Below, piece after piece: positions 18,631 through 64,000 of a stretch of 64,000 nt of DNA. Position numbers and translations under genes: made by a program. Origin of the DNA: Caldovatus aquaticus (GTDB lineage: Bacteria > Pseudomonadota > Alphaproteobacteria > Acetobacterales > Acetobacteraceae); the NCBI RefSeq assembly GCF_019458025.1, contig NZ_JAHZUY010000008.1, positions 1-64,000 of the forward strand. The letters run 5' to 3'. Each line of letters begins with the position of its first letter. Position 1 is the first letter of the stretch. Below the pieces are notes generated by a model that had not been told where the DNA came from, did no database searches, and saw only the letters and a list, made by a program, of their open reading frames with translations.

Positions 18631-19320
18631 ATGGGGCCGAACGAGACACCGGGCCCGCAGGCCCTGCGGGACGAGCGGACAGGCGCGCGCACCGAGGCGG
18701 CGCCGAGCGTGCGCGAGCGCATCCTCGCCGTCGCCCAGACCCTGTTCGCCGAGCAGGGCTATGCCGCCACCTCGACGCGGGCGATCGCGCAGCGTGCGGG
18801 GGTGAACCTCGCCCAGCTCCACTACTACTTCGGCTCCAAGCGCGAGCTCTACATCGCCGCCTACCGCCGCGGCGCCGAGCCGGTGACCGAGGCGCGCCGC
18901 CGCGCGCTCGCGGAAGCCAAGGCGCGCTGGCCCGCGGGCGACATCCCGCTCGAGGTGCTGGTGCGCGCCTTCGTCACGCCCTTCATGCTGAACGGCCGCA
19001 CGCCCGAGGGCCGCGCCACCATGGGCATGCACGCCCGCCTTCACACCGAGCCCGACGACATCGCGCGCGAGGTGCTGAGCGAGGTCTACGACGACACCAC
19101 CCTCGCCTACACCGAGGCCTTCCGCCGCGCCCTGCCGCACCTGCCGCCGGAGACGCTCTACTGGCGCCTCTACTTCATGATGGGCGCCTACCGCTACACG
19201 CTGCTGCGCACCGGCCGGCTCGAGGTGATGTCCCGCGGCGCCTGCGACTCGGGCGACTTCGAGACGGCGGTGGAGCAGATCGTCCCCTTCCTCTGCGCCG
19301 GCCTCTCCGCCCCGGCGTGA
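18631..19320 (+). CDS. TetR/AcrR family regulator
   Basis: A 229-residue repressor-type protein. The DNA-binding domain covers residues about 27-73, with the helix-turn-helix in ATSTRAIAQRAGVNLAQLHYYFGSK. The remainder is the helical ligand domain, including a C-terminal region like TetR_C_36/CecR-type members. It is divergent from the monooxygenase operon and directly upstream of the DUF35/thiolase pair, so all five genes may be its targets. Palindromes over both promoters support self and divergent control. Ligand unknown; an acyl-CoA or aromatic is a guess. Confidence 0.9.
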   Translation: MGPNETPGPQALRDERTGARTEAAPSVRERILAVAQTLFAEQGYAATSTRAIAQRAGVNLAQLHYYFGSKRELYIAAYRRGAEPVTEARRRALAEAKARWPAGDIPLEVLVRAFVTPFMLNGRTPEGRATMGMHARLHTEPDDIAREVLSEVYDDTTLAYTEAFRRALPHLPPETLYWRLYFMMGAYRYTLLRTGRLEVMSRGACDSGDFETAVEQIVPFLCAGLSAPA

Positions 19321-61601: not shown

Positions 61602-62246
61602 CTACGTCAGCCGCGGCCCCAGCCAGAGGCGGAAGCCCTCGTGCTCGCCCAGCCGCTCGTACCAGGCGCGCAGCGCCGGGAACTCCGGCATGCCCTCGAT
61701 GCGCACCTCCTCGCCGAACCAGCGCCGCGCATAGGCGCCGAGCGCGATGTCGGCGAGCGTGAACGCCGCCCCCTCCACGTACGGCCCGCCGTGCCGCGCG
61801 AGCTGCGCCTCGAGGATCGCCCAGCATTCCGCCGCCGCCTGCATCGCCGCCCGCACCTGCGCCATATCGCGCTTCTCCGGCGGCGTGCGCACCATGCCCC
61901 AGAACAGCCCCCGCTCCGCCGGGCTCAGCGTCGAGAGCTGCCAGTCGAGCCAGCGGTCCACGCTCGCCCGCGCCCCCGGGTCGGCGGGATAGAGCGCGAG
62001 CCCCTTCGCCCCGCCGTGCCGCATGCAGAGGTAGCGCAGGATCGCGTTCGACTCCCACAGCACATAGTCGCCGTCCACCAGCGTCGGCACGCGGCCGTTC
62101 GGGTTCAGCGCGCGGTAGTCCGGGTCGTTGACGCGGCCGAAGGCCATGCCGGCGTCAATGCGCTCGCAGGGCAGGCCGAGCTCGGTCAGCCCCCACAGCA
62201 CCTTGATGACGTTGATCGAATTCCTGCGGCCCCAGACCGTCAGCAT
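61602..62246 (-). CDS. Glutathione S-transferase family protein
   Basis: A 214-residue GST. The thioredoxin-like domain has LTVWGRRNSINVIKVLWGLTELG, NPNGRVPTLVDGD (cis-Pro) and WESNAILRYLC (the Glu-Ser that holds the gamma-glutamyl group). An all-helical C-terminal domain follows with FTLADIALGAYARRWF. The RRNSxNV start is like the bacterial theta/beta-type GSTs with a Ser or Asn at the thiol site. Substrate unknown. Confidence 0.92.
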   Translation of the reverse strand: MLTVWGRRNSINVIKVLWGLTELGLPCERIDAGMAFGRVNDPDYRALNPNGRVPTLVDGDYVLWESNAILRYLCMRHGGAKGLALYPADPGARASVDRWLDWQLSTLSPAERGLFWGMVRTPPEKRDMAQVRAAMQAAAECWAILEAQLARHGGPYVEGAAFTLADIALGAYARRWFGEEVRIEGMPEFPALRAWYERLGEHEGFRLWLGPRLT

Positions 62247-62276
62247 CGGCGCCTTCCTCCCCTCCGCACGGCGCCC

Positions 62277-62305
62277 AGGCTAGGGCAGGCCGCGCACCGC
62301 GTCAG
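62277..62305 (-). promoter_or_regulatory. GST promoter
   Basis: CTGACG (62305..62300), a 17-nt spacer and TAGCCT (62282..62277), about 30 nt before the ATG. It is back to back with the copper-type promoter. Confidence 0.45.
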
Positions 62306-62317
62306 CCGCAGCGGGCC

Positions 62318-62348
62318 TTGACCTTCCCACCGTGGGAACCGCCATGTC
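62318..62348 (+). promoter_or_regulatory. CueR-type (MerR family) copper-responsive promoter
   Basis: TTGACC (62318-62323) and CATGTC (62343-62348) are 19 nt apart, the over-long spacing that MerR-family activators correct. Within the spacer is the palindrome TTCCCA-ccg-TGGGAA (62324-62338). The whole reads ACCTTCCC...GGGAACC, close to the CueR box of copA promoters. The target is the DUF305 gene 65 nt downstream. Confidence 0.7.
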
Positions 62349-62413
62349 CTGGCGCCCGCGGCTCCCGGCGTTTCCGGGGAGCCGCCGAAGTCCGGAGACG
62401 GAGAACCGCCGCC

Positions 62414-63361
62414 ATGACCGCCGCCCGTTCCCCCGCCGCGCCGGGCCGCCGGCGCGCCGGCCTCGCCGCGGCCGCCGCCATGCTCGCCGCCCTCGCCGGC
62501 CCGCCCGCCCGCGCCGACCAGGCCACCGACCCGCTGCGGGAATACGCGCCGGGCGACGCGCCCGTCCCCTCCATCTGGTTCGACGTGCTGATCCTGCCGC
62601 CCGGCGCCGACCCGGCCGAGGCGGCGCGCGCCGCCGCCGAGGCCGACCGCCGCTACGTCGCCGCGATGCGCGCGCACCATGCCGGGGCGCTGACCATGGC
62701 GCGGGCGTATCTCGCCGACCCGAACGCCTCCTCGCCCGTGCTCCGCCGCCTCGCCCAGGCGATCATCGAGAACCAGGCCTACGAGATCGCCCTGCTCGAC
62801 GACATCGCGCGGCGGATCGAGGAGCGGCCGCGCCTCGCCGACCTCGGCTTCGTGCGGCTCGCGCTGCGGCCGCTGGCGACTGAGAATCTCGGCCAGATCT
62901 GGGGCTTCCGACGCGCGCCGCTGCCCGGCATCGCCGAGGCGCTGGCGGACGGGCCGGTGACCGAGCGCGACGTGCAGTTCGCCAAGGCGATGACGATCCA
63001 CCACCAGGCCGCGCTCGACATGGCGCGCGCCTACAACGCGGACCCGAACGCGCGCAACGGCGTGCTGAAGTGGCTGAACGTCGGCATCATCGCCGACCAG
63101 AGCCAGGAGATCGCGCTGATGCGGCGCGTGATCGCCGCCTATCCGGGCGATCCCGAGGCGGTGCGCGTGGATCCCTCCATGATCCACGGCATGGAGGGGC
63201 ACGCCGCCGCGCCCGGCCACGCCGGCGGCCACGCGGCGGAGGCGCCGGCCGCGGCGCCCGCGCCGACTGCCGCCCCCGCGCGCCGGTCGGCCGCCACGGC
63301 CGCAGCGCGGCGGCCGGCGCCGCGCCCTGCCGCGGCGGCGCCCGCCGGCCACGCCCACTGA
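62414..63361 (+). CDS. DUF305 family periplasmic protein with His-rich tail
   Basis: A 315-residue protein with a signal peptide (AGLAAAAAMLAALAGPPARA). It has two DUF305-type helical units, each with the paired-His motif: MRAHHAGALTMARAYL (about 75-90) and MTIHHQAALDMARAY (about 194-208). The C-terminus carries GMEGH, PGHAGGH and GHAH. DUF305 includes the copper-binding cyanobacterial CopM, and the CueR-like promoter supports a copper-handling role. The start at 62414 follows GGAGACGGAGA; longer starts would overlap the promoter. Confidence 0.9.
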   Translation: MTAARSPAAPGRRRAGLAAAAAMLAALAGPPARADQATDPLREYAPGDAPVPSIWFDVLILPPGADPAEAARAAAEADRRYVAAMRAHHAGALTMARAYLADPNASSPVLRRLAQAIIENQAYEIALLDDIARRIEERPRLADLGFVRLALRPLATENLGQIWGFRRAPLPGIAEALADGPVTERDVQFAKAMTIHHQAALDMARAYNADPNARNGVLKWLNVGIIADQSQEIALMRRVIAAYPGDPEAVRVDPSMIHGMEGHAAAPGHAGGHAAEAPAAAPAPTAAPARRSAATAAARRPAPRPAAAAPAGHAH

Positions 63362-63378
63362 CCCGCCGCGTCCGCCGC

Positions 63379-64000
63379 TCAGCGCCGCTTCGCCTCGAAC
63401 CGCCAGGGCGCCGCCCCCTCCTCCGCCGGGTCGAGGGCGAGGCGATGCGCCAGCGGCGGGAAGGCCCGGCTGCGGCAGTCCGGCCGGTCGCACAGGCGGC
63501 AGGACAGGCCGATGCCGACCGCGGCGCGCGCCAGGTCGAGCCCGTCCGCGTACACCACCTCCCCCGCCCGGGCGACGTCGCAGCCCATCGCCACCACGTG
63601 CACCGGCGGCGGCTCGCCCCAGCGCGGCGCCGGGCCGTGGACGGTGCGCGCGAAGCAGAGGAAGGCCGCCCCGTCCGGCAGCGCCGCCACCTGCACGCGC
63701 AGCGTGCCCGGCGTGGCGAAGGCGTGGTGCACGATCCACTTCGGGCAGGAGCCGCCGAAGCGCGCGAAGGGGAAGCCCGCCGCCGAGAAGCGCTTGTCCA
63801 CGTTGCCCGCCGGATCGACGCGCAGGAAGAAGAAGGGCACGCCGCGCGCCCCCTCGCGCTGCAGGGTCGAGAGCCGGTGGCAGGCCTGCTCGAAGCTGAC
63901 GCCGAAGCGCGCCGCCAGCGCCTCGACGTCGTGGCGCAGCGCCCGCGCGGCGGCGAGGTAGGCGCCGTAGGGCATCAGCAGCGCCGCGGCGGCGTAGTTG
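63379..64000 (-). CDS. Short-chain acyl-CoA-type regulator (DUF2083), N-terminus beyond the right edge
   Basis: The C-terminal 207 residues of an XRE-family regulator. NYAAAALLMPYGAYLAAA and EALAARFGVSFEQACHRLSTLQR belong to the IrrE/ImmA-like metalloprotease-derived domain. The region from FFFLRVDPAGNVDKRFSAAGFPFARFGGSCPKW to the end is the DUF2083 ligand domain with its cysteine pattern (SCRLCDRPDCRSRAFPP). Relatives sense short-chain acyl-CoA and control glyoxylate or methylcitrate cycle genes. An internal Met at 63975 is not the start, because the frame continues with family sequence to the edge. Confidence 0.9.
   Translation of the reverse strand, partial: NYAAAALLMPYGAYLAAARALRHDVEALAARFGVSFEQACHRLSTLQREGARGVPFFFLRVDPAGNVDKRFSAAGFPFARFGGSCPKWIVHHAFATPGTLRVQVAALPDGAAFLCFARTVHGPAPRWGEPPPVHVVAMGCDVARAGEVVYADGLDLARAAVGIGLSCRLCDRPDCRSRAFPPLAHRLALDPAEEGAAPWRFEAKRR

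Follow-up and report, generated by a model that had tools for sequence, protein, structure and literature searches.

A DUF305 gene of Caldovatus aquaticus with a CueR-type promoter matching that of copA encodes a probable CopM-like copper protein

The window analysed here, a stretch of 64,000 nt of Caldovatus aquaticus DNA, carries a gene for a DUF305 protein that is very probably made under copper excess, because its promoter is nearly identical to that of the copA gene of the same genome. The identity of the operator with the copA site, the presence of a CueR-type regulator, the conservation of the site, the copper-gene neighbours of the orthologues and the similarity of fold were all observed; from these we infer, with a probability of about 0.85, that CueR would induce the protein together with copA, and that it would be exported to the periplasm and would bind and buffer copper there in the manner of CopM of Synechocystis. 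The features of the gene and its promoter are listed in Table 1.

Table 1. Promoter, operator and protein features of the DUF305 gene, in positions of the window.
Feature	Position	Strand	Remarks
-35 element TTGACC	62318..62323	+	From the sequence; identical in this genome's copA promoter
CueR-type operator ACCTTCC-N7-GGAACCG	62321..62341	+	From the sequence; site kept upstream of 16/16 orthologues
Inner palindrome TTCCCA-CCG-TGGGAA	62324..62338	+	Exact
Putative -10 element CATGTC	62343..62348	+	19 nt past the -35 element
DUF305/CopM-like gene, 315 aa, product probably exported	62414..63361	+	ATG start, TGA stop; PF03713
Signal-peptide-like N-terminus, residues ~1-36, MTAARSPAAPGRRRAGLAAAAAMLAALAGPPARADQ	62414..62521	+	Judged by eye; predicted helix 11-28
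First helical hairpin, residues ~67-135	62612..62818	+	MxxHH = M85..H88 H89, plus M95
Second helical hairpin, residues ~184-241	62963..63136	+	MxxHH = M193..H196 H197, plus M203
C-terminal tail, residues 254-315	63173..63358	+	SMIHGMEG, disordered His-containing stretch, terminal HxH

An earlier reading of the window from its sequence only had pointed to a palindrome within a 19-nt promoter spacer. Both parts are exact: the plus strand at 62318-62348 reads TTGACC, TTCCCACCGTGGGAACCGC and CATGTC, with the palindrome in the spacer. CueR and HmrR control promoters with a 19-nt spacer that contains a palindrome (PMC1526738; articles are cited here and below from excerpts). The left arm of the operator is that of the classical site, ACCTTCC-N7-GGAAGGT, whereas the right outer arm is degenerate; the GGT of the classical site is missing from it, and all three mismatches fall there. 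A scan of positions 62200-63500 for sigma-70 promoters (16-18-nt spacers) and for terminators returned neither, and the lack of such a promoter at the DUF305 gene is expected for a promoter of the MerR type. Since 0.71 chance occurrences of the 15-mer palindrome, at up to three mismatches, are expected in the window, the window alone leaves the palindrome undecided against chance, and it is the whole genome that decides.

The gene had initially been taken to start at 62318. That frame is a mechanical TTG-to-stop ORF that opens within the -35 box; the start, read by eye, is most likely the ATG at 62414, after GGAGACGGAGAA. A glutathione S-transferase (GST) gene (61602-62246, minus strand) lies divergent from the DUF305 gene, and the operator sits in their common gap. 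Tentative CueR sites upstream of GST genes are mentioned in the excerpts of PMC1526738. Here, the GST gene was rejected as a regulon partner because the DUF305 gene is the only one that TTGACC faces, and relatives of the GST are present in 0 of 17 orthologue loci. On the other side, a gene for an ScfRs-type (short-chain fatty acyl-CoA) regulator (63379-64000, minus strand) continues past the window edge; a stretch 80% identical to it is also found downstream of the DUF305 gene in L026, the metagenome-assembled genome AVDCRST_MAG04.

Searching the 3,988,527-base genome with the 23-nt sequence TTGACCTTCCCANNNTGGGAACC, allowing up to three mismatches, located it twice, in each case without mismatch, whereas its reverse did not occur. 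One place is at the DUF305 gene and the other at copA; a further copy of the palindrome, for which the sequence-only reading had proposed to look, does exist. The second operator (contig C53:40249-40271, minus strand) lies ∼30 nt ahead of a gene whose product scores 559.7 bits with the copper P-type ATPase model TIGR01511 (cut-off 397). After this gene come, in turn, a MerR gene and a heavy-metal-associated (HMA) domain (C53:37243-37416), an order that reads as a copA-cueR-copZ-like arrangement. The two promoters match from -35 to -10. That of copA is TTGACC-TTCCCATTGTGGGAACCCC-CATCTG, with CATCTG at the -10 position in identical spacing, and its site carries the same right-arm variant as the DUF305 site; the bases after the palindrome are CCCCCA at copA and CCGCCA at the DUF305 gene.

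Four MerR_1 proteins are encoded in the genome, and one of these, directly after copA, is of the CueR type. It scores 149.3 bits with the CueR equivalog TIGR02044, a margin of 1.9 bits over the cut-off of 147.4, is below a second CueR model, NF007590 (95.6 against 244), and is far under the cut-offs of the models for Zn, Hg and Cd/Pb regulators. Alignment with E. coli CueR shows that it retains both C-terminal cysteines and the serine of SA[DE]VKR; we take the cysteines to be C112 and C120, which bind Cu(I), and the serine to be S77, the mark of +1 metal sensors. As the other three MerR_1 proteins lack a CueR-like motif (two have a cysteine near that serine position and the third has no such metal motif), the C53 protein is the sole CueR-type regulator of the genome. 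The sequence-only reading, which took the absence of any copper regulator of the MerR type as grounds against itself, therefore survives. It had also stated that neither copA nor cueR is in the window, and this is borne out: both are on C53, and the contig of the window, C129, has none of the MerR_1 matches of the genome and none of the HMA matches listed.

A second MerR gene (L021; G000:C69:16996-17196, minus strand) has a Cys-type metal site. HMA matches at G000:C69:18588-18698 and 18813-18965 (plus strand) lie in an 819-aa frame on the opposite strand, and this MerR gene and the nearby HMA frame are probably another metal resistance pair. Genes for a multicopper oxidase and for CopC are also present elsewhere in the genome; they were rejected as further targets, the 3.3-kb stretches around them being without the operator even at up to six mismatches.

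A protein search of genome contigs gave 17 orthologue loci, of which L042, a fragment at a contig start with no upstream sequence, was left out. The remaining 16 orthologues share 52-60% identity with the window protein, and their hosts include Belnapia, Roseomonas, Roseicella and Dankookia, among others, which points to the Acetobacteraceae as the family of the window's genome too. All 16 loci have the operator, at up to two mismatches, in the 1500 nt upstream of the match, against 0 of 16 for the reversed pattern, although these counts are not independent because three of the 16 loci belong to one strain, Belnapia rosea. There are two mismatches in L027, L031, L035 and L039, one in L026, L033, L038, L040 and L041, and none in the other seven. 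The site is 67-264 nt from the match in nine loci, 764 nt in L035 and 1276-1309 nt in six. TTGA of the -35 element is kept in all 16 sites and C at its fifth base in 14; after the palindrome, CCC at the third to fifth bases is found in 14 of 16 and A at the sixth in every one. Among three genomes of the same genus (including that of the window), one shows, where a contig ends, a match to part of the protein (58% identity over residues 13-123), with a site ∼1.2 kb upstream, and the other has no clear orthologue.

The only Pfam assignment for the protein is DUF305 (PF03713; E 4.6e-22, 79.2 bits against a cut-off of 27), which matches in two stretches, and this is the one DUF305 gene of the genome at E 0.001. 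The 315-aa product contains 10 His, 9 Met and no Cys. Two DUF305 units with an HH pair had been described from the sequence, and the pairs are indeed at residues 88-89 and 196-197; what does not stand is the view of the duplication as a special feature, as such a two-unit HH build is usual, being that of both CopM and the Deinococcus DUF305 structure. Similarly, the tail had been called His-rich. Histidines are there, but the richness was overstated, as six of 62 residues is a moderate content and the second-lowest count among the 17 aligned proteins. Residues M85, H88, H89, M95, M193, H196, H197 and M203 are invariant in all 17, as are M256, H258, M260 and the terminal H313 and H315 of the tail.

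The AlphaFold2 model (mean pLDDT 76.5) has two confident hairpins, at residues 67-135 and 184-241, and a disordered tail, with pLDDT below 50 at residues 268-300 and 305-315. When the model was compared using VIA-align, the five best rows were all CopM entries (apo, Cu(I), Cu(II) and two with Ag; Z 13.6-13.9), aligned over 121-122 residues at 30-31% identity and covering model residues 76-245; the Deinococcus DUF305 structure came next (Z 11.9), and ferritin-like bundles followed at 11.5 and lower. With Foldseek alone, nothing in the PDB matched at E ≤0.001, and the best rows were unspecific. Z by itself is indecisive for a relationship to CopM, since the tool warns that a best Z of 14 is typical of mostly helical models for which Foldseek has no clear match. 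The relationship is nonetheless safe because the sequence itself matches the Deinococcus protein (E 2.9e-6) as well as the CopM chains (E 1e-5), both having two HH units. With CopM entries in the top structural rows and the sequence match behind them, the two HH units are, in the predicted structure, the two hairpins of one CopM-like four-helix bundle. We call the protein CopM-like and not CopM because it scores 74.2 bits with NCBIfam NF049983 (CopM family metallochaperone), under the cut-off of 90.

CopM of Synechocystis (PDB 5fej, 5ffa-5ffe) has the same two MxxHH hairpins in a four-helix bundle, together with a signal peptide and regulation linked to copper. Each of its two DUF305 domains bears an HH motif; the protein binds copper, is located in the periplasm and in part outside the cell, and makes cells resistant to copper (PMC4335983), and a CopM peptide containing MxxHH binds Cu(II) strongly (PMC11836926, both from excerpts). 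The two differ in that CopM is regulated by the two-component system CopRS (PMC4335983), whereas the window gene has a CueR-type promoter, and in that the conserved Met/His motif is a C-terminal SMIHGMEG in the window protein and a linker MHxxH in CopM (PMC11836926).

The neighbours of the orthologues bear on what the protein might do with copper. In the six loci with the 1276-1309-nt distance (L028, L030, L032, L033, L034 and L037), the site is followed by cueR as the first recognised gene, then by a small protein and then by the DUF305 gene. In five of these six (five of 16 overall), copC and copD follow the DUF305 gene, and a divergent CopZ-like gene is also found in five (L028, L030, L032, L034 and L037), faced by a second site with one or two mismatches. 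Pfam assignments in the orthologue clusters include CopC, CopD, HMA, MerR, DUF411 and a cation-efflux protein. It is possible, albeit rather unlikely, that the protein is instead a CueR-controlled metallochaperone that passes copper to a partner in CopC/CopD import or in cuproenzyme assembly, or to an exporter, and not a sequestering buffer; this would depart from our explanation at the last step alone and is compatible with it. The copC and copD genes of those five loci are consistent with such a role, as are the CopC gene elsewhere in the window's genome and the NCBIfam family name. However, the neighbours of the window gene are the GST gene and the ScfRs-type regulator gene, and the nine orthologues with a site 67-264 nt upstream have no cueR or copC match in the stretch examined. 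The periplasmic copper buffer remains our preferred reading.

Three further loci were considered. The relative on a Geminicoccaceae plasmid (L107) adjoins cueR, multicopper oxidase, copper resistance protein B, DUF411 and P-type ATPase genes; an operator of the form described here was not recognised upstream of it, and a classical CueR site was rejected, the two matches having three mismatches each and neither lying within the gap before the DUF305 gene. The Azospirillum locus L109 has one classical-type site with one mismatch, 490 nt upstream of the match, which was also set aside, as matches at up to three mismatches occurred in 55 of 200 shuffles. The relative on a Roseomonas haemaphysalidis plasmid (L108) has no annotated copper neighbours and no good site.

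Across 200 genomes of the family, the exact 21-nt pattern is present in 39, and the reversed control is absent from the table of matches. We classified 30 of the 60 sites listed, one per genome, representing 30 of the 39 matching genomes, according to the first downstream gene recognised by tblastn; because only six reference proteins were used, other kinds of gene would not be recognised. That gene was a CopA-type ATPase at 21 sites (the window's genome included), cueR at three, DUF305 at two and CopZ-like at one, and none was recognised at three, two of which lie 131 and 324 nt from a contig end. Hence, 27 of 30 classified sites precede copA-, cueR-, copZ- or DUF305-type genes. Together with the same operator at copA beside cueR and the sites of all 16 orthologues, this supports the CueR-like signature that had been recognised from the palindrome. 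It also makes it very improbable that the gene answers instead to a MerR-type regulator of Zn, Cd, Pb, Hg or Au: the genome does encode four MerR_1 proteins, and MerR-type sites look alike, but the same site precedes copA beside cueR, the family sites lie before copper genes in those 27 cases, and the remaining three MerR_1 proteins are not CueR-like.

The site is unevenly distributed among DUF305 genes. We examined 30 DUF305 loci, a subset of the matches listed by score in the 200 genomes, three of which (L073, L086 and L093) have less than 430 nt of upstream sequence. The site was present within 1500 nt upstream in eight of eight close relatives of the window protein (tblastn 221-259 bits), which probably share some species and so are not independent counts, and in one of 22 other loci (≤52 bits or no tblastn match). 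Outside these 30, comparison by eye identified at least five DUF305 genes with a same-strand site within ∼700 nt upstream (G104:C5, G067:C23, G055:C7, G160:C6 and G074:C181), and the one in G104 (L066) is weakly similar to the window protein. L098, too, has a DUF305 gene with weak similarity to the window protein and a CueR-type site close upstream. The site is thus strongly enriched in the DUF305 subgroup of the window protein, and other DUF305 genes carry it too; the CueR regulon may have recruited DUF305 proteins repeatedly.

These numbers also bear on whether copper is the main business of the protein at all, as it could instead serve in envelope or sulfur stress and carry the site by chance. 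There is a precedent of sorts in Starkeya novella, where an ECF sigma factor drives a duf305 promoter and expression of a neighbouring gene is high on tetrathionate (PMC6527743, from excerpts). We give this explanation only a slim chance, given the distribution of the site (eight of eight close relatives against one of 22 others) and the recurrence of copper-gene neighbours both in the orthologue clusters and on the Geminicoccaceae plasmid.

CueR-type regulators activate transcription by distorting DNA. At the DUF305 gene, CueR would occupy the 19-nt-spacer promoter at 62318-62348, and binding of Cu(I) (or Ag or Au) to CueR would distort the DNA such that RNA polymerase could use the over-long promoter, switching on copA and the DUF305 gene together. 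The product would be exported to the periplasm, and perhaps partly beyond, where its two HH-bearing hairpins are predicted to fold as a CopM-like four-helix bundle. Copper would presumably be bound through the MxxHH motifs and the Met/His C-terminus, and the protein could in this way buffer periplasmic copper that is pumped by CopA or arrives from outside.

There are parallels to the enterobacterial CueR regulon (copA and cueO, with cueP in Salmonella), which likewise has CueR, a 19-nt spacer and a palindromic operator (PMC1526738), and which also places a copper pump and a periplasmic protein under one regulator (cueP according to the excerpts of PMC4335983). In C. aquaticus, in contrast, the periplasmic arm would be a DUF305 protein, and the operator has a degenerate right outer arm. 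The curA cluster of Myxococcus xanthus resembles this system in that genes for a DUF305 lipoprotein and a copper ATPase stand side by side, but it is under the two-component system CorSR (PMC3707914, from excerpts), whereas the window gene has a CueR-type promoter.

The chances are about even that this represents a lineage-specific design of the CueR regulon in the Acetobacteraceae, in which the operator is asymmetric and the periplasmic arm driven by CueR is a DUF305 protein that resembles CopM and has a mobile Met/His tail. In such a design the operator would read TTGACCTTCCCA-NNN-TGGGAA, with a C-rich stretch after it whose last bases are CCCA (here GCCA), the right outer arm having been lost beside the -10 element. 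If this is true, the DUF305 protein fills the place of CueO or CueP of the enterobacteria. No description of a CueR-controlled DUF305 protein was found in the open-access PMC literature, as far as excerpts of it extend, nor was a link of COG3544 with copper found there. Two candidate sources were discarded: the matches in the excerpts of PMC4520260 concern DUF3050, and the 'CopM family' of PMC7830388, likewise from excerpts, is a different kind of protein. What is new is very probably the addition of a CopM-like copper protein to the CueR regulon, the type of copper defence being already known. This adds a probable periplasmic member to the alphaproteobacterial CueR regulon and provides a concrete, testable function for proteins annotated as 'DUF305', those with a CueR-type site being probably copper-response proteins.

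The small protein encoded between cueR and the DUF305 gene, ∼138 aa and secreted-looking (L030:4341-4754, plus strand), has tblastn matches in L028, L032, L033, L034, L035 and L037. Neither Pfam (at 0.01) nor NCBIfam (at 0.001) gave a match for it, and we would liken it, as an assumption of our own, to DUF2946. Besides a Cys pair it contains additional Cys (CCAAAQCP in L030, CCVPGACP in L035); GIEV..PSLPPPR is found at its C-terminus, and it is possibly an undescribed copper-operon protein.
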